Source: Allacma fusca (taxonomy: Eukaryota; Arthropoda; Collembola; Symphypleona; Sminthuridae). From it: a stretch of 64,000 nt of DNA. The first letter of the stretch is position 1; each line of letters opens with the position of its first letter. The stretch lies in contig OX359247.1 in assembly GCA_947179485.1 (NCBI GenBank), forward strand, positions 62,345,131-62,409,130, written 5' to 3'. Of the stretch, positions 5,601-63,060 are shown piece by piece. Below the pieces are notes generated by a model that did no database searches, was not told the origin of the DNA, and saw only the letters and a program-made list of their open reading frames with translations. A program made the position numbers and the translations under genes.

Positions 5601-8600
5601 GTCTGGGCAGCGTTGAATGTCACATAATTTCGTCATATTAATAACTAACGAGATCAAAATTATAACCGAATTTCGTCACAAAGTTACATCAATTTTGAGG
5701 TCGTATTTTGGGCAAAGGTTGAAGTGTCAATGTTGGACAAAGTTTCTGCCCAATCGACCTTGAATTTAAGTTCAGTTTCGGACAGAATCTTACTTGGCCA
5801 CGTCAAGGTGAAGACTGAAACAACTTAATGTAGGAAGGTCGTGATTGAATTGTGAAGACGTAAAGGTTGAAGCGATTTTAGGTCAAGATTGAAATAAATT
5901 ACGGTCAATATTGAACAAATTTACGGTCAACATTGAACAAATTTACGGTCAACACTGAAAAAATTGACGGTCAACACTGAAAAAAATTGACGGTCAACAC
6001 TGAAAAAATTGACGGTCAAAACTGAAAAAATTGACGGTAAACACTGAAAAAATTGACGGTCAAAATTGAACAAATTTGCGGTCAACATTGAACAAATTTA
6101 CGGTCAACATTAATCACATTTAAGGTCAACATTGATCACATTTAATGTCAACATTGATCAAATTTACGGTCAACATTGTTCAAATTTATGGTCAACATTG
6201 ATCAAATTTACGGTCAACATTGTTCAAATTTATGGTCAACATTGATCAGATTTAAGGTCAGCACTGAACAAATTTAAGGTCAAGTTTGTCAAAGTTTGTA
6301 TAATATTTGATCAGAGTTATGGTCAAGTCTGAGAAAACCTAAATGTCATTTAAAGTTGAAATTAAACTCAAGCTTAAGTGGAGGTCAAGTTTTGGTCCAG
6401 GTCAAGTAGGGTCAGCTATTTTTGAGATGACCCAAGCGCTATACATAATGGTGGTGAAATTCGGGGATGAAAATGAATTGGGAGGTGAAAGGTTTGGAGA
6501 ATGCTTGTGTGGACGGAGCTCTGCTTGTGGAAAATAGAAAGTGAGGAAAAGATTTAAAAGTAAAAGAATGCTGAGCCCTGGTAATGAGTAAGACATAGAA
6601 GATATATTGGTTTGTATTGATTACATTGGCTGTGCGAAGTGGACTGGCTTCCATGAGCATATCGCCTTCTTTGTGCATGTTCAGTGGATTCGGGAGAATC
6701 CAATGAAAAACTTTTCATTCGAAGATCCAATTTCCGTCGTCGAGGACTGTGTGGAGCTACAAAAATCATTTTCACAATATTTCCCGTCAGTCATAAACCA
6801 AATTCACCAAATTCACCAATTTCTCTCAACACCTCGCATCAAGTAACAAGCACACATCACCACAACACTTTCCTATTCCAATCCTCAAAGTACAAACAAT
6901 ATTACACTATTTTGCCAAACTAAGCAACTTTCAGCAAATTCAATTTTCAAATAGCGCCGCGCGCTTAGTTTTGATTTTCGCGCGTCAAAAATTCCAAATA
7001 CAATCAGTACTTAAGAGCCTTAAATGACTACGAAAATATCATACTTGTGTACTACTACTTATGTAGATTTAATGCTACACAAACACAATTTACTTAATCG
7101 GTGCGCGGCACTCTTAAAGACTCTTTACTTAGTTAATTACTTTTTACTCCTTTCTTTCGTCTTAAGACGTTTTTAAACTCGCGAAATCCCGCCATTAAAT
7201 ATAATCCAATACACGTCATTATAATATACCTAACTTACACAATGGTAATGCCCTGTACGATGAAGGGCAGCAGCGCACGCTTTTCAGGGGCAACACTTCA
7301 TAAAATTGCGCGCTCACAATTCCGAAGGGTTTAATGTCTCAAACTATAAAATACTTTGCCCAATGCGCTTAACACATAATTGCTATAGAAGTAATGCTGG
7401 GGAGTTTTTTCAAATAAATCAGTGACACGCTGTTTTAAAAATCCAGGTTCGCGTCGCAACAAACGTATTACCCAATACTAGGTAACCTCAGCGCGCGACT
7501 TAGAAAATACTAGAGCGCAGAGCATTTTTGTCAACATTAGGAGCGCACAGATATGTATGAAAACTCTAGGGCGATATTATACAACAGTTAGTTTGTGCAA
7601 GTTGATAAGCCCTATAGCGCGTGGTATTTCAAAATGTGAGCGCGTTTGCATTAAACAGACTCCAGACAATTTCCCATCAACAATCAAAACTATTAGTCGC
7701 GTTATTTCTCTAAGACCTTATTGCGCCCTATTTCATGTAATAAATATCTTTTAGTAATCGGCCAAACCATAGTGTGCACTTTTTAATTTTACTATTTCAA
7801 TTCATTAAATATAAATATACGACTGATACTACTCTTTTACAGGTGTTTTCTTAATTTACTAAAACTTGGGATTCAAATATTTAAAATGGCGCACAACTTC
7901 AAATACAAGCGCTCAATCAACCGTGCAAATCTTCTCACAATGGTATTTGCGGGCGCGCGTGCGCATTACAAAGCCGGTTTTATTTGGGATAATTTTTATG
8001 TAAGGTAATAACCGGCACCATTAAAGGTGATAATGTATCCTGCACCACTCAAATTCCTTACAAAAATGCGCAAGGAAAATAAAACAAATTGGCGGGAAAT
8101 TTAAATCCACCTGGACATTTTGTCTTGACTAGATGTTCATACGGCATTGTGAAGCTTGCAAAGCAGAGTATAGCGTTAGTATATACGCAACTGTGAAAAC
8201 TTATTGTGTTAGATTGGAGCACAAATCCACCCTTATAAATCTTTGCGTCAGTTTGTTAGGAAATAGAGCTGAAGAGAGGAAATAAAAAAAGAGAGAAAGA
8301 CTCCACACGGAGGATATTAGACGGTCCATTAGTACTAATAATAAAAAGCCTATCTCAAGTTATTTTCACTATATAAGGATATTAATAATTCCCATGGGAA
8401 AAAATCCAGTTAATATATAGAATTTATGAGAGAGTGAAGGAAATAGGAAAGACAAATGTAAAAATGAAACAAGTGTACAAAAGTATAGAGTAAAAAATTG
8501 AGTGTAAGAAAAAAAAATATGCGGGCAAAATAAAATAAATTGGAGAAAAATACTTTGGGGAGTTTCTGGCAATGAAATACATCTTGGCCTTGCTGGAGGA

Positions 8601-11600
8601 ACTAAATAAATTGGGGATGTCGGACCGGGCGGATCTGCTGAAACACTTTTATGGCTCACGTAACTATCCCGTCTTTGCTCACTCGAACGTCGTCCTGCAT
8701 TTTTTCACAACCTTTTGTTATTTTCAACACCCATTTTCCCTCCTCTCTCTTCCATTCCCAACAAAAGGCCCAGAAATTCCCAAAGGTCAAAACACGTTGA
8801 CACGTTATCCTTGTATCAACTTGTAAATAACTCTGAATTTTGTTCCGCCCGTAAATAGGCATTAAATTATAAAGAATTTACGAACCCAACAACTCCGGAA
8901 TTATTGCATCATAACTTGCATACAATTTTTATATTCATGGATTAAATCAGTGCTCTCCACGGGTACGGGTATTAACCGGAATAGGAAAATTTGCATTGAA
9001 AAAGTTAAATTACCGGGTATTTCTCCCCTGAGCTTGAACACGTATCAGAGTGTTCTAGAAATATAACTTCCTGTATTAAAGTTATTCTAATCTGGATGTT
9101 ACCAGGATTTTTAATTTATCGAGCTTTATAATTTATCCGGGTATTTTCAAATTGCTTTGGAAAATTATCTTCGTAGTTAAAGTAATAATATTTTTGGAAC
9201 ATTTTCTTATTTATTATAAAATTATTACTCCGGAATTATGTCCTGAAATGTTAACCGGGTATTTGACTTCCGATGTTCCACAGTACCCGGGTTACTAAAT
9301 TATGTTCTTGTACATTCCTTTCATGAAATCTTCTGTGGATTCACTTCAATTCAACTTTTAAAATCGACGGTGCTGTAAAGTAAGGGTGTATTTATTGAGT
9401 GGTTATCCCAACACCCGGGTATTTAATTTTTTGCTCTGCGGCGCCTTTTGAATTGAAGCACTTGGAAGGAAATAACTACCTAATGTACGAGGTAATACAT
9501 CAACAGCTTGTGTCTTTTAACTGATCTTATAAAAGTAAGACCCTGGTATTTTAATGACTTTACCCGAGGTTCTTAAAACATGGTGTGAGCATTAAATTTG
9601 ATGGTTGAGAAATAACCCGGAAATTCGGATATTTGATGGTTATGGGAGAATCGAGCGTTTAAGAACCCGGATATTAAAGTACCGTTACAGGACCGAATTA
9701 AGATACTGCCAGGGTATTTAGTTTGCCTCATCAGTTATTACCACATAGTAGAGCTGGTACAAGTAAGTGCATATTCGGTTTAAAAAATTACTAGCTCACG
9801 TTAATGGGAACGCCCGAGTGTACGACTCCCGGAGTTTTTTTAAAACCCAGGTGCTATAAAAAAATTTAAATTTAGATTACAATCAGTTAACCTAAGCTTT
9901 TTCCAGAGGCTCTTCCCTCCATCCTATAATTACCAGATACTCTGGGACTCCAAATGAGCGATCCTTCAATGCTGCTAATACCCGGGTGCCATAACAGAGT
10001 TATGGTTTAATACGACAAACCCGGCTAAAAAGACTAGAGCAAAAAAAGTTTAGCTCAACTTTAGTAGATACAAAATCCAATGATGATCACTGTCATTGGA
10101 AAAAGTACTACCCGGGTAGTGTTCGGAACACGGAGCTGTAATTCCCGGGTAACCTGTAAAAAGGTAATTCAAATCATCGATGCTTTCATAATTCGGGATT
10201 CTCGGGTTCGTCCTCATATACACCCGGGTATTATTGTCTACACCCGGGTAACAATTTCAAAGCGTACCTATCAAATACAAAACCCCTGCCTTTGTTAACA
10301 TTTGCTGCATTTTGGTAAATTCTATTTAAAATATCTATTAAAATGTTCGGTTGTGAATGGAAGGAGCCCTTTAAAAGGTTTTACCCGGATAACTGGCGTT
10401 TAATGTTAAAATGTTGAAAACGTGAGGAATTTTGTCAACACGAGAAAAACGGCGTCCCGTACCCGTCCGGAGCACTGTCTAAAATTGCTCATAATAATCG
10501 ACGCAACGGGCCCAGTAGGCACCCCAAAACAATTAACATTACATGTAATACATGACTGTGACCACTAACGGTCAAAGGGAAATGTAGCTCGGGAAACTAA
10601 CCTGAGGACGAGGACTGGCTAGCCAAGGCCTGAGCTGCTCCTCCCGGTGTGGTCGCCCCCGATGCAAGTCCTCCCGATTGACCCACAACATTGACGGAGG
10701 GGTTGGAGCGTCGGGCAGCCGCAGATGCCATGGTAACATTTGGGACCCCTCCGGCCCCCACATCATGCTGAGAATACAATGTCTGGGACGAGCCATGGAT
10801 CCCGTTCCCCGACCCACTTCCACTGCTACTTCCACCCGTTTTCTTAATATCCGTCGCCTGCTTCAGAACCTGGTAAATTAAATCTGGCTCGTCCGGCCGG
10901 GGCTCTCCGCGGTCCCCAATTTGACCTGTTTCTAAAAATACCCACGCACAATTAATTAATTCTCAAACCAAGAGTTTTGGAGATACCAGGATGAAAGTCT
11001 GGAGTCAAATAGTGAATATGGTATAAAAATGAGGTAATTGAAATAGTGTCAGAATGTCCCTTACATATGTAAGGCTATAGGGAGAGAGGATAATTTAGGG
11101 GTGGTGTATTAAAAGGAAAGGATTACTTGTTGAGGGCTCGTCCTCAGGAGGTGCTTGCTCATTGGTGATTTGGTTCAAGCGGGTCTCGAGTTCGGAAGTG
11201 GAGCGTTGCCTCCGGAGGAGCCGTGTTTTGGGCAAACACTTACTCACCTTCCCTTGACAATCCGTGTGGACATTGAGCTTGCAAAGACGACATCTCAGAC
11301 CTTGCTTCGTGTGTCCTTCAATTCCAATCACATTTAGAGTCAAATACCCACACAATACTTCATTCTTTTTCAATTTCATTCATTCTTACACTTATGTAGG
11401 GCTTCACAGAGACCAATCTCGCTATCAGAGCACGTTCATATATTACGTGTCAAAAATGAATTGGGCCTACCACTCTGGCCATTTCTATTTATTAAAAGAA
11501 CATGTACGGACAACTCTGGATATAAAAGGCGCATTTGTAAAAGCATATGCTCTCTATAGAGGCAAGAAAATTTGTGGAAAGCTCATTTATGGATGACAAT

Positions 11601-23600: not shown

Positions 23601-26600
23601 ATAGACTTTTAATAGAACAATAGCTATAAATTGACGGGTCACTCTATATTGACCTTAACCTGACCTCTGGCTAAGTCCAAATTGAATTCCACCTGCTTCG
23701 AACTACCCGCTGTCGTGTTTTCCTTATTGGTCCAATCAGGAATTTAAAATATAAGGCACATTTTCACCTCTGATAAATAATTTGACCCATGTTTGACCTC
23801 TTTTTCTGTAAATCAATCCCGATTTGAATTGAGTCGTCCTCTGCATATATTGTACCCTGTATTTGACCTCTGATCTTCAGATCTTAAGATTATCGCAGTT
23901 TTAATCCAACAACCTTATTTGACCTGATTTGACCTGATTTGACCTGATTTGACCTGATTTGACCTGATTTGACCTGCATTGACCTGATTTAGCTTTATTT
24001 GACCTTATTTGACCTTATTTAGCCTTATTTGACCTTATTTGACCTTATTTGACCTGATTTAGCCTTATTTGACCTTATTTAGCCTTATTTAGCCTTATTT
24101 GACCTGATTTGACCTGATTTAGCCTTATTTGACCTGCATTGACCTGATTTAGCTTTATTTGACCTTATTTGACCTTTTTTAGCCTTATTTGACCTTATTT
24201 GACCTTATTTGACCTGATTTAGCCTTATTTGACCTTATTTAGCCTTATTTAGCCTTATTTGACCTGATTTGACCTGATTTAGCCTTATTTGACCTTATTC
24301 GACCTTATTTGACATTTGACCTTATTTGACCTTATTTGACCTTATTTGACCTTATTTGACCTTATTTGACCTTATTTGACCTTATTTGACCTTATTTGAC
24401 CTGACGAGCTTAAAAAGAGTTGCTGTTCTAAGAAAACTGGAAATTTCAAAGGATAATTTTGAAAGGTGAAGAGTGTGGATTGAAATGTAATTATTTCCTG
24501 TCGCTGCATTTGTATTAAGAAGGGAGGAAAGGGAAAGAGAAAAAAATATTTACAAATAGGGTATCAATAGGGAAAGCACTAAAGAGGGAATTGGAGAAGT
24601 GACTGGATAAGTAAGATGTTTGGAGGGGAACGTCGGAGGAAAAGAAAACGTCGTGTATATTTATTTATTGGTCTTGTCACAAAAAGGTTCGTATGTGGAA
24701 AAGAATGACAAAGCAACTCGAGGGATCAGTCAACCGTAAAATTTAAGTGAAAAATCCATTCCCTTTGAACTTGAACCCAAACTATAAGTCTACATTCTAC
24801 ATAATTATGCGCATACAGGATGTACATTCACATTTGTCCCCATCTCTCTCTCTAGTCCGTTCATAGAATTGACCCATCAAATATTCCAGTAATTATTTCA
24901 TTTTCTGACCATTTTCTTTCATACATTCTGAATTTCTTTCATAAAATTGGGTCAATATTCAAGATTTTCTAAAATTGCTTTTATGCTATTTATAGATACA
25001 TCTTATTTCTACATTTTTTTCCCCTTGAATTGCTTGACCCCTCTGACCCGAAAAAATCCCATAGGGAAATAAAAATAATTGGATTAAATGTGCAAAAAAT
25101 TGGAAAACATTGGCTGGTTTGTATCTTTTTTGGTGGATAATTGAAAATTTGTTATGTGGGCAGTAGTGGTGGAGAAAATGCGACTGGCCATCCTGAACCC
25201 GGGCAAAGGACGTATGGTGAAGACGGGGTTGAGGAAACATGAGCTCACATCAAATACTGGAAAAACTAGAGAGTGGAAAAGGGAGGGAATAGAGTGCTTT
25301 GAAATTCTATGCATTTTCCTCGTATGTCAAAATTGGCTGAAAATTGTGTTCTTTGAAGGAGAAACTTGTTTCATCATTTAACCCTCACATTTTCCCAACT
25401 ATCCCGTTCCCTTTAGCACAGTCACAACTCTCTCTCAATACAAACATCCACATATTCATCCGTCACTTTCTAGAATTTTATTGGGAAGAGGCGCTCATGT
25501 TCAAAAGTTCCATAACATGGGATCATTTGACGCCGTGGGGTTGCTTTTGGGGTCAAAATTCGGGCAATTCAGGGCGCAACTCTATCATGGATCAAACTCT
25601 GGACCAACTTTCACCAAATTTAAAGTAATTGTATGGAAATTTTGGACGCTATTTTTTGAAATAATTTTGGGGGAAATTTGACTTGAATTTATTATTGTGG
25701 TTAAATTTGTTGGGGGGAGAAAAGAGGTTAGAGATGAAAATAGAGGGATGTTGGACCTGGAGGAGTTGAGGGAGCGTCTCTTGGTGGTATTCCTTGAGCA
25801 TAGCGTTGGTTCCCCTAAGCTGGAGCACGTAGGCATTGTGAGCATCTAGGTAATTGGCCATTGTGGTGCTCGTTCCCTGCTGGACATGGGCCATGCAAGC
25901 ATCACAGTAGTCCCGATAAGTCTGGGAAACAATACAAATCGCTCTCATTATTTACAACCCACAAACCCCACGTGCACGGAGCATTCAGTTGACAGTTGAT
26001 TTTATGAGGAATTTTGGGAAGGAAGGAACGGCCGTATTAAGGCAACGGGAAATGTGAGGTATTTTCGGGGGATTTAGAGCAGAGACAATAAAAGTGCGCT
26101 GTAAATCACTTACGCTGGCAAGAAGCGCTTCAGTTTTATTTAAGACAGTCTCAAAGCTCTCACGGTGTGCAAATATCTTCCTCGATTGAATCTTCTTACA
26201 AAATGTTTTCTCCAGCAACGGCCGCGCTACCTGTTTTTTTATACCAATTATTTATTACCATTTCCTTCATTTCTATTTTCTATTACATGGGGTCAAATAG
26301 GGGTGTCATTCAGGGTCAAGTCAGATTTCTCGGATGGGATGGTCAAGTAGGAGTTGGCAAGGAAGGCGGAGGGAGTGAAATGGGACATTCAGTTTAATTA
26401 GGCATACATGTATGTAATTTGTGAGGTTAGGTCAAGGTCATATAATCATTTCAATTTGGGTCAAGTTCAAGTTTCAATTCAAGTTTCGATTCAAGTTTCT
26501 GTTCAAGTTTCAATTCAAGTTTCGATTCAAGTTTCAATTCAAGTTTCGATTCAAGTTTCAATGCAAGTTTCAATTCAAGTTTCAGTTCAAGTTTCAGTTT

Positions 26601-29600
26601 AAATTTCAATTCAAGTTTTAGTTCAAGTTTCAATTCAAGTTTCAATTCAAGTTTCAATTCAAGTTTCAATTCAAGTTTCAATTCAAGTTTCAATTCAAGT
26701 TTCAATTCAAGTTTCAATTCAAGTTTCAATTCAAGTTTCAATTCAAGTTTCAATTCAAGTTTCAGATTAAGCCAAAATTTGATTTCAAGATTGACTACTT
26801 TGAATTCAATTTCCAATAAAAATGCTAATTAAAACATTTTTTGTTTTTCTTGAATCTTAAGTTTCCGTTTAAATTACTCAAGTTTGGATTTGTATCGAAT
26901 TTTGAGCTCAAGTTTGTACTTAAAATTGGGTTGAAATTTAAGTTTAAGCAAAATTTTGAGTTGAAGCATAAGTTTGCATTCATTTTTGAAACTGAAGTTA
27001 AATTTTGAGATAAACATTTAAATTTATCTACAAATACTGTAATAATAACTCTAGATACAGAAATCCTGGGTATAATTTTCCAAGGGATTTTTGTAATTGA
27101 TACATGAAGAAAATGGAAACTATGAAAAGGTGAGGGTAAAGTGCGTTTGACGTTGAAGCTACAGAGAATGGATATAAAAAGTGTGGTTGGAAGTGTTAGA
27201 ATTGGGTGAGGAATGGGGAGACTGAGGCACGGGACATTGAGTAATGTGTGGGGAGAATGGAGTTTGGTTTCATATCAACTCACCTGCCTGCCGAGAGATC
27301 CCGAGAGATCGGAATGAGCTTGAGAATCGATTTCGACTTCCTGAAGCAACGTCTCCCACACTTGGAATAATGAGCTGCTACAAGGTGGTCTGCACAAAAT
27401 ATAAATTACATTTCCATAAAACCCTTCCGTACTTGTTCCATTACGCAACTTTAAAAACCCCATGCTTCCAATCCATTTCCTTAAATACATCCAAAATTCA
27501 ATTGTGCCACATCATTTTTGTTCCAGCTTGCCCCAATTTACACTAACACTCTTAGTTTTCATACTACGTCAATTTTCTCCTCAGTTTTTTCTTCTTGTGA
27601 GCATTCAAAATTTTAATTAAAAAACCTGTAGGGTGGGTAACTTAGCGGGGAAGTCTTTTCAAATGATTACGTTCTTCACAATTGGTACAATTCAGATTTT
27701 TAGGCACCATATTTTGATATGCACTGCATTTTAGAGAGGAAAAAACACAGCATGTTTTTATTCTTAGATTCAGGTCTTGAAAATTATTTTTAAAATTTTA
27801 GATTATTTTTGGTCTTCTAAATTGAAGCCTTTTTTTGAATATTTTCAATTTTTCCAGAATTTCTTCCGTAGTTTTGAGACTGGTACCTTAATTTTTCAAA
27901 TGCTAGTTTACATATAAATTTTCCACCACAATTTCCATATTTCCAAAGGTCCCCCTGAATACTGTTTCAGTTTAAGCGGTAGTTTTGAAAAATTGGTTTT
28001 TTTGAAAAATTTTAGAAACCTTTTTCAAGGTTTTGTCAATGGTAGGAAGTGAAAGAAAAAATAGCAAGTTGAAGGAAAAATCAATTTTAAAATAATGATG
28101 GGAAGTGCAGCGGAATGGTTAAAAATTGGGCGTGAATTTGACTCCCCTCCTAATGAGAATCTTGGGGCACAATACCTGTCCTGGATGCGAAAGCCTACTC
28201 CGGGCATCCGACCCTAATGGCTTTTTATGGGCATAAATCTCCCGAGCATGGCACCTTCTTAAAAAAATGTTGCGGGGAATTTGTAAAAAAAAATGCCTTG
28301 ACAAGCCATTTAATGAGATAAAGGGGAAAGGAGAATAACGGCTGCGAGGAAAAAGGCGAAAGAATGTCTCTCGCCAGCATTACTTTGTAATTATGTGGTT
28401 GTGGTAGACTTTGACATGGGCGTACATACGGGGGAGCAATAAATGACCAGGTGCCTTTGAAGTGATCCTTCTCCTTTGTAATTAATGGTAGTTAATCATG
28501 CTCTTCGTGTCAATTAAAAAACCAGAACCGCTCACCCATCCCACGTAAAAGCCTTGAAAGGACCATTTGAAATAAAAAATGTTCTCACCTTTCCTTCCGC
28601 AGCTCCGCGTTTCTCTTCCGGAAATTATCCACTAACAACTGAAGCTCCACTGCGTGCTGCTCGTGCTGCTGTGAAAGTTGCTGGGTGAAGTCTGAAACTA
28701 CAATAAAAAAAACCCAGTTTTAATTTTTGTTAAATTTCATAATTTTAGAATTTTCTAAAATTTTCCTTGAATAATTTTTACATATTTGCTATTTCTTAAG
28801 AAATATCTAGCGTATCAAATCTTCCCGCCATTTTGGTTTTGTAATAATACTTGTACTAAATTTACAATTTAAATTTCCTGGTGAATTGTCAATTTCCCGC
28901 TGTTCCATTTTAGACCCGATTTTTGCATAATTTGAAATTTTTTCTATTGAATTTCTATTGAATTTTGCGTATTTCCAGAGAAATCTCCAGGGTTTAAAAA
29001 ATACCTGGTAACATTACTACCATTAAAAATGGTGTTGCTGAAATTTGCACGACTTATTTCAAAATTTCCCGCCCAATCTTTATTCCTCTACCTTTGTGCT
29101 TGTTGGTGACAAGAGAATCCCTGAGTGCCATAAGGGCAAATACAAATGTACGATTTCCATGATGTTTGCCTAGAACCACAAGATTATACAGTGGATTGAC
29201 TAAACACGAAATCCTCCGCTCCTTCATCCACAAAATCCGCTGTAACCTCACAAAGCTCATGTTCCCTCTCCGTGGAACAAACGTCGGAACAAGCCTCTAT
29301 TGATTTATGATCGGCTCGCTGCCTCTCATCAATTACCCCAAAAGTCAAGCAAAATTTCTGCTTACGTTTCAATACCTACGAATCCCAGTAAATTTAACAC
29401 CTTCAGTAAACGCCGAAACGTTTTGATGACGCTCACATCAGAATCGCATTTTAATCACACACCATATATGGCTCTACTGTGAATTTATATAAAATCCCTG
29501 AAAATGCAAGTTTGGGATAAACAACTAGTTCTTTAGTGAACATTTAGTGACTCCGTAGAATGTTTTCTTTTATGTTTTAACAAGAAAATTTTCATTTGAA

Positions 29601-32600
29601 ACAAAATTAGAAAATTTTCATTTGAAACAAAATTAGAAAATCTTCATTTGAAACAAAATTAGAAAATTTTCATTTGAAACAAAATTAGAAAATTTTCATT
29701 TGAAACAAAATTAGAAAATCTTCATTTGAAACAAAATTAGAAAATTTTCATTTGAAACAAAATTAGAAAATTTTCATTTGAAACAAAATTAGAAAATTTT
29801 CATTTGAAACAAAATTGGAAAATTTTAGCGCGGTTCTTTAAAAAACAATCCATTCAGGAAATTCTGACGCCTTTAAAATTTAAATTGGGCTTGAACTTTG
29901 CTCTATTGTAGAAAAAACATTTACGAGGGAAAATAATCAGCTCCCTGAAATTAAATTTCTGCATCACCTGCACCTTTTTATGATGAGATCAACTCCCCAT
30001 GTCAAACCCTTTTCAGAGCCTGGAGTCAATTCAGAAGCGAGACAAAAGAGAGGAAGAACAAACGCAAATTTAATAATAAGTCTCATTGTCAGTCACGTGC
30101 GTGCTCTTTCCTTGTTTTCAAACGTCAATGGAAATCCCAGAATTGTCTCATATCACGTTGTCATTAAAATTTATTTTAATAATAATAAAGCCTTCAGATC
30201 AAGTTCCTTCCCCCATTAATTCAATTCCTAGATCAATTTCCAGCACCAGTCTTTTCATATTTTATTCAAATTCGTTCAGCCCAAAAAAGAACATCTGGAA
30301 AACAGCTCGGGAATCAAATATTCTTTCAATTTTCCCCTAATTTTTCACTCGGGAATTTTTTCGACTGCGTAAGAATTATCGCACGAGAGATAATAATTTT
30401 GTCACAGATCAAATTTTGAAGTTTTTTCAAAAGTGACGTAATTATTTAACGGAAAATATATTTTTGTCAATTTTAACATTCGTAATTTTGCCGCAAAACA
30501 TTTCCGTATTTTTTGGCGTCTAGGACACAACGTCACTGTATCTAAATTCTCCCGCCAAAATATTTGTAAGAATTTAAATTTCCTATCCGGGTTTTTTATG
30601 CATAAAATTTTCCACAATTTGCAATAATTTTCACGGCCTAGTCCATATCGTTACAGATATAACGGATCTCCTTAAAAGAACATTGTTTTTATATTGAGGG
30701 GAAAATATTTGCAACACTTGTTAAAACAAACTGTGGTGAGGGAAAGTTTTGGCGTTGCTTGTAATGAGATCTGACTCTATTTTCATAAAGGCCTAAAGGA
30801 TCGGTTTACATCATAATTAATGACTATTTGTGCTAATTGTAAGCCCTTGGCTTAAAGCTTATGCTCATTTATGAGCTTTCCCGCAAACCCTAGTCGTGGT
30901 TGAGAGGAAAAGGAGCTAAATATTGAGCATTATTTCCGAATTTCGCCCAAATGTCTAATCCCCTCGTCCTCTCTCCTTTCCTTTCACGTGTTCTTAGAAA
31001 ATATTTTAATGTTCTCCTGTGACAAGAAGCATTATTTTAAATAACAATTTATGTATTCCCATTAGCATTAATTTCCCAGGAAACGTTCACAATATTAAAA
31101 GATATAATTATACTTTTGCACAACTTTTTGTCTAAAATTTATTTTCAAGTTTTTTGCCCGGTTCCCTTCTTTACGAAGAGTAAAATCTTCTTATAAGGCT
31201 CTGGTGGCTCTATAGTGAATTTCTTGCTAGAAGTGGTGCATTTACTCCATGTCGTCAGCCATTTAGAGAATTACTTTCTTCCTCTTCTTAGAAATTCTTA
31301 GAAAAACTGGTTGTAAAATTAAAAAAATCCTTTGTATGATATTCTCTTTGTAAAGAATCCCTTAAAATTAAATTTTAATTTGTAGGCATGTAAATAATTA
31401 TACATACAAATGTATGTGACACAAGATTCTTGGAAAAAATTGAGAGGATAAGGAACCTTATTGTTTAAATGATTTTTAATTTATTTTTGTAGGAATTACG
31501 GTGTGTAATTTTATTATTTCTGTAAGAAGAGAAATTGTAAGAGGGAATTCCCTGAGAGGGCGAAAATACGGACGAACTTGACATTGTGATTAATTGGAAT
31601 GGGAATGTGTGGATATTTTTTAGGTCGTTTGGAGAAAGACTGTGATCGGGGGTGGGATGTATCTATAGCGAGAGTACACTGTAGTGCTAATTGGCAGGGG
31701 AAGATATGCGTGCGTTTGCTTGAGACAAAGTCGGGATATTTTTAGCCCTGAGGAGAACTTGAATCCTATGAGCCATTCCAACAGTTCCTTTCCAATGACA
31801 ATCAACCAAACCTCGTCCTTTCCCATTTATATTCCGCTCACACTCGACTTGTCATTTCAAATCCCGAACTCATAATTATACGTTTCCGTCGTTCCAATCG
31901 TCTCTCGGTATTCGTAAGTATATCATCAAGTATTCTTTGTAGGGGCTCGAACTCGAGCTACAGCGTAGACTTCAGCTAGAAATTAAGCTTCAGGTAACAC
32001 TTGAACTAAATTTAAACCTCAGCTCGAACTTGAACTAAAGCTTAAAATCAAACTACAACTTGAGCTGAATACTAAAGACCAACCCAATCTCCAACTCCAA
32101 ACTAAGCACAATGTTGAACTTGATCCTCAACTCAAACTTAAACTAGAACCTAAGTACACTCAAACACAAACTTGTACTTAAACTGTAACTCCATTTAGAC
32201 AAAAAGTTGAACAAACATCTCAACTCATAGTTGAACGTATCTCATACTGGAATCTCAAATCGTACTGATACTCCAACTTGAATCGCAACTCATACTTCAA
32301 CTCAAGCTTGAATCTCAGCTAGTACTGGAATGTAAACTTGAACATGAATCTTAACTGCAGTACTTGAATGTAAACTTGAACATGAATCTTAACTGCAGTA
32401 CTTGAATGTAAACTTGAACATGAATCTTAACTGCAGTACTTGAATGAAAATAGCAATCGAATCTTATAATATACTTAAGTTCAATTGGAACCTTAATCTA
32501 AACTTGAACTTTAAACCTATTCTAAACTTGAACTTTAAACCTATTCTAAACTTGAACTTCAAACCTATTCTAAACTTGAACTTCAAACCTATTCTAAACT

Positions 32601-35600
32601 TGAACTTTAAACCTATTCTAAACTTGAACTTTCAATCTATTCTAAACTTGAACTTTAACTCCAGCCTAAACGTGAACTTTAAATCTATTCTAAACTTGAA
32701 CTTTAACTCCAGCCTAAACGTGAACTTCAAACCTATTCTAAACTTAAACTTGACTCCAATTTCAGCTGCAACTCTATCCTAAACTTGAAGTTCAACTCCA
32801 ACCTAACTGTGAACTTGGAACCTATTCTAAACTTGAACTTTCACCACAACCAAAACTTCAACTCTATGCTAAACTTGAACTTTAACTACAACCTAAATTT
32901 GAGGTCTCTCCTAAACTTCCGCTTCAAGGAAAAGTTGAAGTAAACCTTTATAATTAAACTTGAACTGGAACTCCAACCCAAACTTGATACTTGAGTACGC
33001 AATGGAACCCTTTAGGAGCTAGAATGCGAACTATCCCAGCTTGAGGCTGATTGAATCCTTGGATAAATTACATTGTGGGCAAAGGAATAGAATACATCGG
33101 ACGGAGAATGTGCGGGAATTGGCAATCAGAGCAAGAGTCGCTTCTCAATCAGACACTCGCACAAGACGCTGTCTCTCTCCTCACAATCACTACAGTCCAC
33201 TCTCATTCTATCTCAACTCTTCAAGCCCCAAATTTTAATCTTAATAACCCTACGTCTTAAGTTCGCTCCACAAATAATATTCCGCTAAATTTTATTACAT
33301 ACAAAATCTGTCAATTGTGGTTCCTACACAAAATACACCCTTCTTCATACGTACACTCTCATATATTAAAAATTTCCTCTATTTACTTCTTCTCTATTCT
33401 TTATTTACATTACCCGACGTATGTACATATGTACATGCATTGAAAGAATCCCTTTTTATTTCCCTTCCTTTGATTCTATCCTCCTTCCTTCACAAACATT
33501 CCCCTTTTTTCAATACGCGCAAATAATCCATGTCCCATGTCTACACAAAATTTTCCCTCATTTGAGTTTCCACACACATTTTAGTCTCCTTCCACGCACT
33601 TTTCAACCCCCTTTTTCTTCCTTTTGCAAAAATAGATATCTACTTTCAATTCCCCCCATAAAATTTCACCCACACCTCCAAAATTCCACTAATGCATCCC
33701 ATAATTATTTAACACAGGATTTTCTCCATAGGGGACAAAAATCTTCGGAGACTTTTCACATCCCACAATTTAATATTGCCATTGTCAATATCGGACTAAA
33801 ACTTAATTATTCAAATTTTTAAATCTAGTCCCTCTGATTACGGGTAGGATTCTCATTGAAAAAAACTAGTGTTGAGCTTTGGGGCTGTCAGAAAAAACGT
33901 GCTAACCATGACTGGAGTGACTAGGAAATGTTTTAATCCAGAAACACTTGAGACAATGCCGGAAGGGAGTGACGCATAATTGGGATTAAAAAGCCAGGGG
34001 AAAATGAAGAGAGGCTTGAATGACCCTGGATTTGCTAAGAAGGGATGTTTGAGGTGAAGCCAGGCGGAAGAGAGTAAGTCAAGTGGAGGAGATTTGAATG
34101 CGGGGGGGGGAGAAAGAAAACTTGACCCAGTTTGGATTGTGGTTTGAAGGGAAAGTGGTGGTTGGAGGAATAACTGGGATGGAATGAATCATTGTGTTAC
34201 ACGGACGCGTAAATGTCTCGTCTATTTTTTTTTTCGCTTACCTCAGGCGGAATTGAAAAAAAGGGGGAAAACATGAGCGTCATAGGTCTTTTCCCTTGAG
34301 GGGAAAAACGTATGCGGAAAATGGTCGCCTGGAGTTTTCATAGAGGACTTGGCCCAATTCTTTTCCTCTCGTTAATCATACAAATTGCTTTCAATTGCCA
34401 TAGCCTCCTAGCCTCAGCAATGCTTCTACATAATATTTACTCACTTCAGGCACATCTCAAATCCCTTTGTTCTAATGTCTTTTACATTTCCCATTTTACA
34501 TCCACGTTTCTAGGAAAACAAAATCTTCCTTCCCTCAATTTTTCGTTGGGCGGAATAATTTAAAAATACAATACAAGGCTGGGAAATAAAAATGCGGACG
34601 AAGATTTTAAATCCAAGATGGAGTTGAGGAAAATATCTGGACCCATCTGAGTCGGGGATCAAATCTAAAAATATTTGGATTCTAAAATCCAAATTGTAAA
34701 GAGTCAAATTGTAATAAACAATTTGACTCACAAAAGTGTTAAATGAAAATTGATGGTAAATTTTTCAAATAATTATTTTTATTCCTTCAAAAATAATGCT
34801 TGAAATTTCTGCTGGAAAAATGTTCCTCAGTCTGTGCTGTTTGAGTTAATATTTTGGAATGGTTGGGAAACGCACTTGTGTGGAGGTATAGCGTATGATA
34901 TTTGTTTCACATAATGTGGGTCTCGTGTTCCTCTTTGCTTGGCTATACTCGTGAGCATGCTTTTGATCTTTTGGGCCGTAAATGTTGTATTTCAGTGGAA
35001 TTTATGTCTCCCATAACCACCCTTGTTGTGATTGGATACATTACGCTTGAATGGAACTAGGACCCGTATTTCGGCTTGCGTCTTATCTTCCAATTCTCCT
35101 GCGAATTCGCTAACCAGAACACTTGAGAGGGGGGTTTCATTTAATTTCTCTTATGATTTTGCATCTCTTGGTCCAATGTTACTCCTCCTGTTTTGTTTTC
35201 TCTTTACCCGCGAGTTTTATGAAAAAATTTACAGTTTTTTTAAAAACAAATTGTACGAATTCTGTGTAACAAAACGTGAGATGAAATATTAACAAAATGT
35301 GAGAATTGTGGGTAAAAGGTGATAAAATCAAAGGGAATGATTGGAGGAATCTCATCAGGAAAACTACAAAAGTTTAAAAATAAAAGGGTTATTTCCCGCC
35401 TCAATCCCTGATTTCCCACACTTCCCGACTTTCCTCAATCCCCCTGACTCTGGGCACATTCACCTTCCGTTATTTCGTAAACACAGGAAGAAAAGGAGAA
35501 ATGGTGTGGAAGGGACGGAATAATGCGAAGGGAAGGGCGTCTGGAAAGGTTGGGGAATGTCTCAGGGAAAAAATTACATGGGATGGAAATGAACCCATTG

Positions 35601-35854: not shown

Positions 35855-38800
35855 TCACATCGTCTCGGAACAAGTTAATTTTATAGTCTCGAGAGCGAAG
35901 GTCAGGAGCTGAAGATTCGGAGAGTTTCTATGGAGACCAGGAATCCCATGAAAAAGGAATTGAGCTTTGATTCCTGTGTCATGTGGAATTGGAGGGTCAA
36001 ATTGAACACGAGGCAAATCCTTAATGCAAATCTATTGGAGACCTGAGCTCCGAGAGGGAAATCGTCAACCTCAATCAAGCCCCGTGTCCATCAATTCCGA
36101 CGCAATTGTTATTAATGTAATTTATTACCAGATCCCCTTTCCTTCCGTCTCCATAGGAACTCATTACAAATGTATACATACATATAAGGGACTAGCTCCT
36201 TCCAGCACATTCATTATTTCTCGAGTCGTACAAAATACATTCGCTTAAATATTCAATTCAGGAATAGGCCGAACCCCACTCAAATTCAAGTAATTATTGA
36301 TTTATGAGCTTTTCCCGTGTTCCCGTTACACTCCCCGACAATTCCTCCTTTCAATGACCTTATTTTAAAGCGTTTAGCTCGGTAGTGCCGAATCTGACAC
36401 GCTCAGGTCTCCGTATGAGTAGTAGTGTGTAGTGTCAGACGCGACTCTCCTTCCTAACCACGAATTTCCCGCCAAAAACAAATATTGAGCTGAAACATTT
36501 TCTTATTTTTATTCCCAAATATTTCTCCCCCCCCCCACTCTATAATGACAAATGTGAAGATTCAATTTCAAATTTAGAACTAAACTCAGGAATTTTTGAA
36601 ACCAGCTAGTTCTTGTGAGAATAAAATAATTAAAGCATGGTTTGAACACAAAAACAAAAAAAATATTAAAAAATGATTCAGGACAAAAATGTTTGTATGT
36701 AGCTTTAAAAAAGTTGCGCTTTTTAAAGCACTATGGATTTGAAAGTGTCATTAGCATTGAATTTGTGGGTGGGAAAAATAGAAGAAAGAAAAGGGGGAAA
36801 ACAAGGTAATTTTTTATGAGGAAAAAAAGGGGAAAATATTCCCATGAATCCCCCTCGCAGTCCAATTACGGTTTAAGTGGCTATAAAAAAACAGGAAGAA
36901 AAGGAAAGGTCGTAAATTGAAGGGATGATGATTGGAGTAAGACCCGTGTGTCAGAAGATGAGAATTATTTCAAGGTAGGAGGGGAAATGGGGGACGGACG
37001 GGAAAAGAAACAAACTTCACTAACAAGCTTTAATGTTTTCACTGGAGAAAAAATAAAAGAGAAAAAAAGAGAGAGAGAGAGAGACAGAGAGGGAAAAAAT
37101 AAAACAGGAAAAAAAGAAAAGACGTGGGAATCGATTTTCTCCAACCCTAATGAGCGGATTTAGCTAATTCTAATGCATTTTTTTACATGAAGTCTCAAGT
37201 CTGGTCCTCGTGTGTGTGTGTCTTTTTCTCTCCGTTATTCTAAATGGAAACTGTTGCTTCATCCCTTTTTTGGCCGTTGGGAAAAAAGATCGTATTCAAT
37301 CCGCACTCCCACCGAGCTCCGGCTTATTTTCCATTGTCCTTAAAAATTCAAGGGAGGTTCAACTCCCAAGTAAACCTCACCACGATCCACATTCCACAGT
37401 CGATCCAGCAGACTCATCTTTCCCTTTTAATATTTCCCGCTGACTTCCAAACCATGAGAATGAAAAAAATGGGAAAAACATGAGGCATAAAGTGAGGCCT
37501 TGTGTACAATAATTTGAAAATTTTAAATTATTTTAATATCATTCCCATCACGCACCAAGGCCGAAAGGGCCGAACTTGTGTGCGCATCGGGAAATTGAGC
37601 CCGATGCAAATATTCCCTTTCAAAATTCCGCTCAAACGAGAGTACGTGGTGAGGTTTACTTGTGAGAAGGGAGGGTCGTTAGGCGCCATTCTCTCACAAA
37701 AGTAACAATACGCCTTGAGGAGGCCGCATTTTCTTGGGGTTTTATGCCTAAATCTAAAGAAAATATTTTACATCCGCCTTTCCACCTCATCCCGATTTTT
37801 CCAGCGTCCGGACGTCACATGACTTCATTTGTTTGTGACGTCATAGTGCCAACTTTCTGACTTAATTCCAAAGCATTGATTTTTTCTAAACTTCGACGCC
37901 CTTTGAAAAGTTTCCGGGTGAATTTACAGAGCTACATAATTATATCTTTGTAGCAAAATTGTTGGGTGAAGAAATTTCTTCGAAGCAAAAACAAATGGGC
38001 TGTCTGTTTTGGATCCATCCCGTTTTTCCCATCTATTTTACCCGCTTCTGATGACCTTTGACCTAGAGGTTTTCCCCCACAAATGAGGTTTCCACTGAAG
38101 GGGATATTTATTTTGGAAATAAAACTAATTCCAATTAAATGAAATTAAGCCCTTTAAATTCTACGCTCTCATTGGAAATGCTTGGAAATTATGAAAGTGT
38201 GCTTTAAAATACCACATTTTAATTATTCCAAAACAAATGATGACTGCTGCTTACTACTTACGAAATTTGAATGCCCACCCCAAATAACCGAATGCTGAGA
38301 AATGCAATTAAAGAGAAAAATCCTAGGGATAATTGTGAATTTGAACGTTCTCAAAAAATGAGCTCCCACACGTTAGTGAACCATCGAAAGGAAACCCCTG
38401 CGTTGGATGGAATAAGTGCTGGTGAGCTTACAAGTTGTGACTTGACTCCTTTGTAATTGAGGATAATATTTAGAGATCATAAGCCGGAAAGAAGCCTCAT
38501 GTTTCAAAGGAGTTTATTTATTTTCGGGGAAGACAAACAAATGAAATTTATTTACGAGGGGAGACGCCGGAATAAAGCCCAGCACTGACTCCTTTGATGA
38601 TGATGCATGAGTAATTGGTGGCAATCGCATCGTCCCAGATAACACATTCCCACAAATATAGAGCTTGCAAGTCAATTCTACAGGCACAGGGGGACACACA
38701 GCATTTTCGCTTCGTCTCCATTTTCCCTACTCATCACATCTTCCATAACTTCCCACCCAGTTCCTGGCTTCCCAATTCTCTACCTGGCTAGTATAAACAA

Positions 38801-60450: not shown

Positions 60451-62872
60451 CCGAGTTTCACCCGTGTTTTCTGAGTATCTTCCAAACGGAATAGAGCGTG
60501 TATGTTTGTCCTTTAAAACACTTCTAGGATTTTTTGGTCGTCATGGAAACCCATCGGTACAGTTCCAGTCCATTGTTGGCAACTTGAGTAACGGTGGGAT
60601 AAAATCTGGAAATTCAAAACAACGGTTTTAGTAGATCCCATACCTATTTTCAAACCTTCTAAAAAAATCATTTTTTTGGGGGAAATTTCCCCGTTTTTAG
60701 GCCCGACGGATTTCGACAAAGAATTGCCTCTAATCTGAGAAATTTTGATGGCATGTACTGCAAAATGGCTGGACAGTTTCAAGACCAGAGAGGGGACATA
60801 ACAAGGGAATTCCATTTTTGAATGAATTCGACGTCACAGACTGTGGGAAATATATTTTTTATTCCATAGGGAAGTGCCCTAAGTCACATTCGTTAACTCA
60901 ACCGCAAGTACAGCGAAGCTATTGATACCACATTGTAGGGTTTAATCCGGAGCTAAAAGCATTTATGCACGCGTGGGTCTCAATTTGTATCGGATCATGT
61001 ACTCAGAGCATTAGGATGTCCCGGAATGTTGAAAACCAACCGGGTCCTTAAAAACTCTCATGGACGACATAAGAGACGCATCTATTTTTTACGGGCCTCT
61101 TTTAAAATACATAAATTGTCTACTCAACCCCCCAAAAACCATTGAGGCCTATGCTTTTCATATTGGCCTCTTCTAACTTTTGATGCCAGATTTTTTTAAA
61201 AAACAAATGAACTTGTTTAGTGGAATGCAACCTAATTCAAATTTTTCTTAAAATCCGGAAAACCTTTGAGCATTGCTTATGGAGTCGGAGGAATAACTAC
61301 ACAAGTACAAGTACCTGAGAAAAGTGTGGCGGACAATTAAATTTTTACCGGCGCCCATAAATTTGGAAGTGAATTAATAATAATTGGAAGTTCCCACCAG
61401 AGGAAAATAAATGTTGGTGTGACTTGAGGCATGTTGTGGACGACCCCCGAATGGCTCATGCAGTTGGTATGCATGGAAAAGAGCGAATCCATGTTTGAGA
61501 ATTAGCGAGGAGCGGAAGAGAGGAAATTGCATTAGAGAGTGGAATCCGAGAGGTTGTTTGACAGAGGCGTATGAAATATTGATTCCATACCTTGCATTGC
61601 CACAAACAACCTATTTAATTGCACTTGTGGAAACCAGCCTTTGTAAAATGACCGTTCCGCTCTTCCCAAGGACGGTCTCATCCCACATGAACAACTCACG
61701 TAGTGCCTGTACAGAGTGTCACAGAACTTGCATCTCATTCCTGGGCCCAGTAAGGGACAATACAGTCAAAAATATTTCACTCCCCTTTTGTGTAATTACC
61801 TGGTTCTCTAAAATTTATTTCATTCAAATTTTCAAATCTACCCCCCCCCTCCCCTTTTATTTAAAATTTCTCCCCAAGTTACTACTTAACTACTAAAATC
61901 TAATTATTTGTTGACAAAACTGGGTACATTAAAAATCATTTTAAAATCATTAAAAAATTATAATTTCTTTCAGAGCTGGGCCCAGTATTTTTGAGTTATA
62001 AATGTTAGCCCTTTTTAAGATAATAGGGGAGTTTTGCATAGATAGAGAAAATAGAGGAGTTCAGTTTTAGAAAGACAAATTTTAGAAAACCTGGTAAAAA
62101 TTTGCGTGCGAAACTGGGAAATTTGGATGTATTTACGAAATGAAGGAAAGGTGAAAGAAACCTTCAAAGTGGGGAAAATTTTGAAGATGTTTTATGCTAC
62201 GTCCCCTAAATTTTCAAGAGAGAGGAATAGGTTTTTGTGGCACCCTGTATATACACATACATACATATGATAGAGTGAGGGAAAGGCTTGGCCTAGACCT
62301 CCAGTGCTATTTATACGAAGGTTTTACATACACCCATGTGACAGGACAGGCATCCAAGTTGTCGCATAGCTGTCATCAATTTGCGTTAAAGCTCGCGAAA
62401 TTTTCAACTGACAATGAGTTTAAATGACGGGGGATTTTCAACGGCCTAGTTAAAGCTCGTGCCTCTCATCCAACCCTCAATATTATATCTTACACAACAC
62501 ACTCCATTTTCACACTCCTCGTCTTTCAATTAAATTCGAGTCTCAGGCAGGAGCTCTCTTCATTCTTTTGTCCGCACATTCCTCAGCTCTGTACCAATTA
62601 AAGCATGATTAGCACATTCCGCGGTGTACTTACTGATGTACATTATGTATTTATAACTACTGGGTATCCACCCTGCTGGCAGTATTTTCCACCCAAGTCA
62701 TCCCACCAACAATTTTTCCCATAGGAAATGACCTCATTTTAGATTAAAGTAGTTCGATTACCACGGAATAAGCACAATCACAGGTCAAGTTCGAGTCAAG
62801 TCTGATTTAAGCTATGCTCAAGCCCGCGTCGAATAAATATCAAGGGAAGGTCAAGTGCGAGTCAAGTGTGAG

Positions 62873-63060
62873 TCAAGTGTACTTTTGTCAAGCGAGGGTC
62901 AAGTGTACTTTTGTCAAGTGTACTTTTGCCAAGTGTACTTTTGTCAAGTGTACTTTTGTCAAGTGTACTTTTGTCAAGTGTACTTTTGTCAAGTGTACTT
63001 TTGTCAAGTGTACTTTTGTCAAGTGTACTTTTGTCAAGTGTACTTTTGTCAAGTGTACTC
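62873..63060. repeat. 15-bp tandem repeat, about 12 copies
   Basis: Unit TCAAGTGTACTTTTG, nearly perfect on the right and decayed to TCAAGTGCGAG on the left. The period is a multiple of 3, so it opens false ORFs on both strands. Confidence 0.95.

Follow-up and report, generated by a model that had tools for sequence, protein, structure and literature searches.

A 1530-bp stretch of the Allacma fusca genome, which lies in a 64-kb window (the whole stretch of DNA that was analysed; 62345131-62409130 of its contig), is probably a single non-autonomous hAT-type insertion with ends of a kind that hAT transposases recognise, words that are putative subterminal sites for BED fingers, and an interior of filler (Table 1). 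This reading is supported because the ends recur in the genome, paired copies of them carry 8-bp duplications, and a family with related ends contains pieces of a hAT transposase. The initial annotation had proposed a non-autonomous DNA transposon; these grounds point to the hAT type, with the qualification that the element exists as a single copy and that its own duplication matches at 5/8 positions. All genome searches covered the 392.7-Mb assembly (91 contigs).

Inverted ends and words with common borders

The element starts with CAGTGCTC and finishes with GAGCACTG, and its 22-nt ends are identical at 19/22 positions, the three mismatches being contiguous at positions 9-11 (TCC versus CGG, where most of the ends listed elsewhere have GGC). 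Short CAGTG-type inverted ends represent what we take to be a hAT-like end style. A 19/22 inverted pair is, taken alone, no rarity in the window, in which pairs of at least 19/22 within 4 kb occupy 43 overlapping 22-nt rows, many of them in repeats; the inverted-end evidence is strong because the end sequence recurs genome-wide. Some 300 bp separate another pair of inverted ends at 37360-37669 (best 21/22, 37363-37666), which might belong to a small MITE unrelated to the element.

Six copies of ACCCGGGT are present in the window and all fall within the element (0.52 expected; 0/100 shuffles reach 6), with none in the remaining 62.5 kb. The 1.53 kb also contain 20/29 of the window's copies of ACCCGG/CCGGGT, and no 1530-bp span held more than 4 ACCCGG in any of 200 first-order Markov resamplings of the window. 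For TACCCG/CGGGTA the count is 16/29; the outermost copies inside the element (8960 and 10460) lie within the inverted ends, and the nearest ones beyond it are kilobases away, at 1844 and 15062. The word cluster and the ends therefore have common borders, which bears out two observations of the initial annotation, namely that 19/22 inverted ends bracket exactly the word-rich stretch and that the motif forms part of those ends.

Table 1 Features of the element and its flanks (positions in the window)
Feature	Position	Strand	Basis
Whole element, 1530 bp, non-coding	8948..10477	none	longest stop-free stretch 76 codons
Left candidate target-site copy GATTAAAT	8940..8947	none	5/8 vs right copy
Right candidate target-site copy TCTAAAAT	10478..10485	none	5/8 vs left copy
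Left terminal inverted repeat CAGTGCTCTCCACGGGTACGGG	8948..8969	+	end comparison; genome-wide recurrence
Right terminal inverted repeat, CAGTGCTCCGGACGGGTACGGG on - strand	10456..10477	-	end comparison; genome-wide recurrence
Word TTACCGGGTA	9010..9019	+	search with ≤2 mismatches
Word TATCCGGGTA	9134..9143	+	search with ≤2 mismatches
Word TAACCGGGTA	9252..9261	+	search with ≤2 mismatches
ACCCGGGT palindrome 1	9285..9292	none	exact word count
ACCCGGGT palindrome 2	9413..9420	none	exact word count
Imperfect word GACCCTGGTA	9539..9548	+	search with ≤2 mismatches
Imperfect word AACCCGGATA	9664..9673	+	search with ≤2 mismatches
Imperfect word TGCCAGGGTA	9707..9716	+	search with ≤2 mismatches
ACCCGGGT palindrome 3	9980..9987	none	exact word count
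Imperfect word AACCCGGCTA	10018..10027	+	search with ≤2 mismatches
ACCCGGGT palindrome 4, inside the perfect TACCCGGGTA	10110..10117	none	exact word count
Word TTCCCGGGTA	10142..10151	+	search with ≤2 mismatches
ACCCGGGT palindrome 5	10222..10229	none	exact word count
ACCCGGGT palindrome 6	10242..10249	none	exact word count
Word, TACCCGGATA on + strand	10382..10391	-	search with ≤2 mismatches

Sites within two mismatches of TACCCGGGTA number 16 in the element versus 12 in the other 62.5 kb; one of the 16 is perfect and nine have a single mismatch, and just six of the element's copies are the full 8-base palindrome ACCCGGGT. When aligned, the 16 sites share approximately ACCCGGGTATT, in which the word tends to be followed by TT, amid unrelated flanks, and Tandem Repeats Finder (score 30) reported one array in the element, of 12 bp and unrelated to the word. 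With no word array and nothing common to the sites beyond that short stretch, we rejected tandem growth of the word, and the earlier proposal that the element had grown through word multiplication is not supported. The literature matches listed contain no mention of ACCCGGGT in connection with hAT elements; among those listed, CCCGGGTA occurs once each in two papers on IS2.

A decayed transposase inside the element was considered and rejected, as no stop-free stretch exceeds 76 codons. Across the window, Pfam gave one sub-threshold match for nine open frames and each of two PDB searches turned up a single weak match, all of which we attribute to chance, and neither Rfam at gathering scores nor a tRNA scan returned anything. 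A Ser/Gly-rich open frame with no Pfam match adjoins the element (10597-10962, - strand), and the element may be intronic or have a gene as its neighbour. Minisatellites occur at 23912-24402, 5877-6283, 29583-29826, 32321-32918 and 62872-63059 (units of 10, 22, 26, 24/38 and 15 bp), the cluster near 32 kb falling in a 2-kb bin whose GC skew is -0.33.

Recurrence of the ends, copy number and target site

The end pattern CAGTGCTCNNNACGGGTACGGG, allowing up to three mismatches, occurs 1392+1364 times in the genome versus 9+9 times for the reversed control. We looked for paired ends in the first 31 loci (L001 and 30 more, two of them the element's own ends), most of which extend 1.5 kb past the end, a length at which longer elements could not pair. 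Sixteen pairings formed a complete element, one being that of the window, and the other 15 all carry 8-bp duplications (13 at 8/8 and two at 7/8), a property on which they had not been filtered. Seventeen further stretches of 9-10 kb yielded nine pairings in eight stretches, here filtered at a duplication of at least 6/8 (seven at 8/8, two at 6/8); the other nine stretches gave no partner end, also by a looser search. In one of these stretches, L032:3682-5265 (1584 bp; 6/8 duplication) also has ends that closely match those of the element, and near one end it carries a 14.3-copy, 32-bp tandem array that includes TACCCGG.

The 15 sampled paired copies contain 25-35 TACCCG/CGGGTA each, crowded near both ends, and 13 of them are 92-99% alike, representing a common 1.3-kb family (for example, L002:1501-2813). 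This family has the same end core as the element, CAGTGCTC...ACGGGTA, and the same TACCCG/CGGGTA words, but its words crowd in the terminal fifths, its 8-bp duplications are perfect or near-perfect, and it is abundant. The interiors have nothing in common, reaching about 50% identity in a forced alignment.

In contrast to that family, which served as a positive control (2269 first-look candidates, 40 scored), the 1530 bp matched themselves alone in the same genome search, which skips very common words, at E values up to 0.001. The part between the ends likewise matched only itself at E up to 10, a 2530-bp query comprising the element and both flanks found this locus alone, and the best 40 matches listed against 57 other loci (E up to 1) fell at the ends alone. 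Several whole copies are usual for non-autonomous hAT families and are not required of each element. The initial annotation had named several copies with 8-bp duplications as a confirming sign; the duplications are there in 15/15 other pairs (7-8 of 8) around recurring ends, but not in the form of further whole copies or of a good match at this locus.

The chance of two 8-mers agreeing at 5/8 or more is 0.039. Simple old age explains the poor duplication of the element badly, because the ends are intact and CpG is not depleted (observed/expected of 1.06 in the element, 1.02 without the words, versus 0.68 for the window); the CpG value likewise fits an old decayed insertion poorly. A join of two insertions would account for the mismatch: the left and right ends would then derive from different hAT insertions, brought together by deletion or aberrant transposition without a true duplication. 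The flanks that disagree beside two intact ends, the end bases TCC and CGG, which are unlike one another and unlike the GGC that most listed ends carry, and the single copy all favor such a composite. We nevertheless regard it as unlikely, since random filler would not be expected to have near-palindromes in every fifth of its length, nor a palindrome, ACCCGGGT, that is absent from the other 62.5 kb. If the element is instead one non-autonomous hAT-type insertion, this particular copy has presumably itself been moved.

Pieces of hAT transposase in a sister family

The consensus of the 16 sites led to a second group of elements. ACCCGGGTATT occurs 1212+1235 times genome-wide versus 38+36 for the control, and many of the first 100 places listed are facing pairs. 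We read eight of these pairs, with spacings of 441-449 bp (three), 932-934 bp (two), 658, 1000 and 1618 bp (one each). In 7/8 stretches an end of the form TAGTGC(CCCT/ATCG)CATG(G/A)GT(A/T)CAGG is followed by the box ACCCGGGTATTTGG, which begins 26 bp inside, such that the ACCCGGGTATT box in these places belongs to families with TAGTGC ends; the eighth, L058, did not fit the end pattern. The pattern CAGTGCNNCTCACGGGTACAGG, with up to two mismatches, is found 204+221 times in the genome versus 0+0 for the control.

Pfam identified in L057 a Dimer_Tnp_hAT remnant that passes the cut-off (E 2.9e-6), and nothing at E 0.01 in the pieces from L056 and L058. Used as a protein query against the genome, this remnant gave 904 candidates, of which 150 were scored, and comparison by eye of the matches listed places at least five about 4.4 kb inside a CAGTGCNNCTCACGGGTACAGG-type end on the same strand. 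The layout of L061 comprises the end, the box, broken-up open frames and the box repeated near 4.72 kb, in a stretch of more than 4.7 kb beyond which the far end lies. One of its seven open stretches scanned contains Dimer_Tnp_hAT (E 4.2e-10), two others contain complementary halves of zf-BED (E 0.067 and 0.0018, both below the Pfam cut-off), and the remaining four have no Pfam match. The genome contains at least 150 dimerisation domains of the hAT type, scored out of 860 candidates.

The TAGTGCCCCTCA family (L056, L057, L059 and L061) thus resembles the element in its related ends and in the ACCCGGGTATT box, which lies 26 bp in from one end and recurs in inverted form close to the opposite end. 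It differs from the element in the transposase pieces of L057 and L061 and in its subterminal words, which are mainly GGTACAGG/GGTTCAGG and their complements. Window positions 9130-9149 are identical to an L061 subterminal box at 19/20 bases (E 0.002); this match, which covers the word at 9134..9143, ties the word to a hAT box. The open stretches show no such resemblance: tblastn of the seven L061 stretches against the element gave nothing below E 0.59, while one of the seven matched L057 and L058.

As regards the autonomous hAT relative named by the initial annotation, transposase pieces occur in this sister family with related ends; between ends of exactly the element's type (CAGTGCTC...ACGGGTACGGG) our searches found no transposase. 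Two candidate partners were rejected. L037 (5786 bp, perfect duplication) has open frames for a LINE-like endonuclease and reverse transcriptase, and the hAT gene at L051 carries merely a short end-bearing fragment. At L037:2715-8500 the LINE-like element is enclosed by hAT-type ends with a perfect duplication of 8 bp. The fragment at L051:2635-2714 (80 bp) has a single CAGTGCTCGG end as well as TACCC words, and is flanked on both sides by open stretches of a different hAT gene. Elsewhere, transposon ends at G000:C1 1587266, 1594180 and 1601094 and hAT domains at G000:C8 28181777, 28191590 and 28201403 are listed exactly 6914 bp and 9813 bp apart, respectively, which suggests tandem arrays of long hAT-containing units.

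Judged by its ends and words, the element is kin to large families of the same genome; the titles and abstract openings among the literature matches listed make no mention of large hAT-type families in Allacma fusca. This kinship bears on the possibility that the words are sites for a host factor, forming a regulatory cluster whose inverted ends are coincidental or exapted from an old element. Words that are alike amid unrelated flanks and the retained CpG fit such a cluster, but we consider it extremely unlikely, as its borders are those of ends found thousands of times in the genome, the paired copies of which carry duplications, and the word itself is a subterminal box of hAT-like families.

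Word placement and proposed function

We compared word placement in 24 elements, the window's and 23 others, which mostly belong to one family and eight of which were preselected by the duplication filter; L037 was excluded because a LINE-like element fills it. Near-palindromic sites (up to two mismatches) number 3, 4, 2, 4 and 3 in successive fifths of the element, whereas 22/23 comparison elements have none in the middle fifth and 19/23 none in the central half, the exceptions in the latter being L007, L030, L041:1501-4082 and L045. Near-palindromes that run through the interior are therefore unusual, as judged against these 23 elements, mostly of one family. Counts of the exact TACCCG/CGGGTA speak against this contrast: the central half holds only 3/16 in the element, 6/20 in L032, 5/31 in L041:1501-4082 and 4/32 in L030, and the common family has about twice as many of these hexamers as the element.

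The initial annotation had offered a foldback-type element as an alternative, which would now consist of two long, strongly decayed inverted arms that are alike in their words alone. The arms do align well as long as words and ends stay unmasked (z 5.5, 300 shuffles), and word distances measured from either end coincide at a single offset in 4/7 cases (p 0.0056 under random placement), in a test devised post hoc in which 2/9 left sites were dropped; the mirror-like spacing is no more than a lead. Once words and ends are masked, z falls to 1.15 and the best local score is reached in 149/500 shuffles, which shows that the high arm-versus-arm alignment is due to the ends and words alone and makes this structure very improbable.

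For a non-autonomous hAT-type insertion, we propose that the two ends are of the type recognised and cut by a hAT transposase of the springtail, and that the TACCCG/CGGGTA half-words, often joined as ACCCGGGT, would be subterminal sites for the BED-type zinc fingers of that transposase. The element would be a passive substrate whose words bind and recruit transposase, by analogy with Hermes and Ac/Ds, and the interior would be filler unlike any transposase gene seen here, comparable to that of maize Ds1 and Ds-l4. Words spread along the element may help to recruit or titrate transposase.

This proposal has precedents in three publications. In the hAT transposase Hermes, BED fingers bind repeated short subterminal words, cooperatively on a quasi-palindrome, as we propose here; the Hermes word is AAGT, however, and is concentrated towards the tips, and auxiliary binding further inside was judged unlikely to support transposition (PMC10368747). 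hAT-derived CGG-binding proteins combine BED and Hermes-type domains with a usual preference for CGG or CGC, and the motifs of four hAT proteins tested match the subterminal regions of their own elements (PMC8097297). The maize transposase Ac recognises AAACGG hexamers. Ds1 and Ds-l4, which otherwise have little in common with Ac, resemble our element in their short hAT-type ends, some subterminal hexamers (AAACGG) and, on the present reading, filler; they have 8-bp duplications, and their hexamers were counted in the terminal 200 bp, whereas the near-palindromes described here run through the interior (PMC3260210). Ds1 and Ds-l4 are also plant elements, and ours is from an animal.

A bolder interpretation is that the interior is a selected array of paired BED-binding sites along 1.5 kb, with which the element, or a relic of it retained by the host, recruits or sequesters hAT transposase and so outcompetes or restrains the many sister copies loaded with such words mainly at their ends; we consider this decidedly unlikely. 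As a non-autonomous hAT-type insertion, the element is in other respects an ordinary relic, with a single copy and a poor duplication. It draws attention to large hAT-type families of Allacma fusca with one 11-bp box in common and, if the words are transposase sites, it would allow a natural test of what governs hAT mobility: the number and placement of these sites along the element, or only the first few at each tip.
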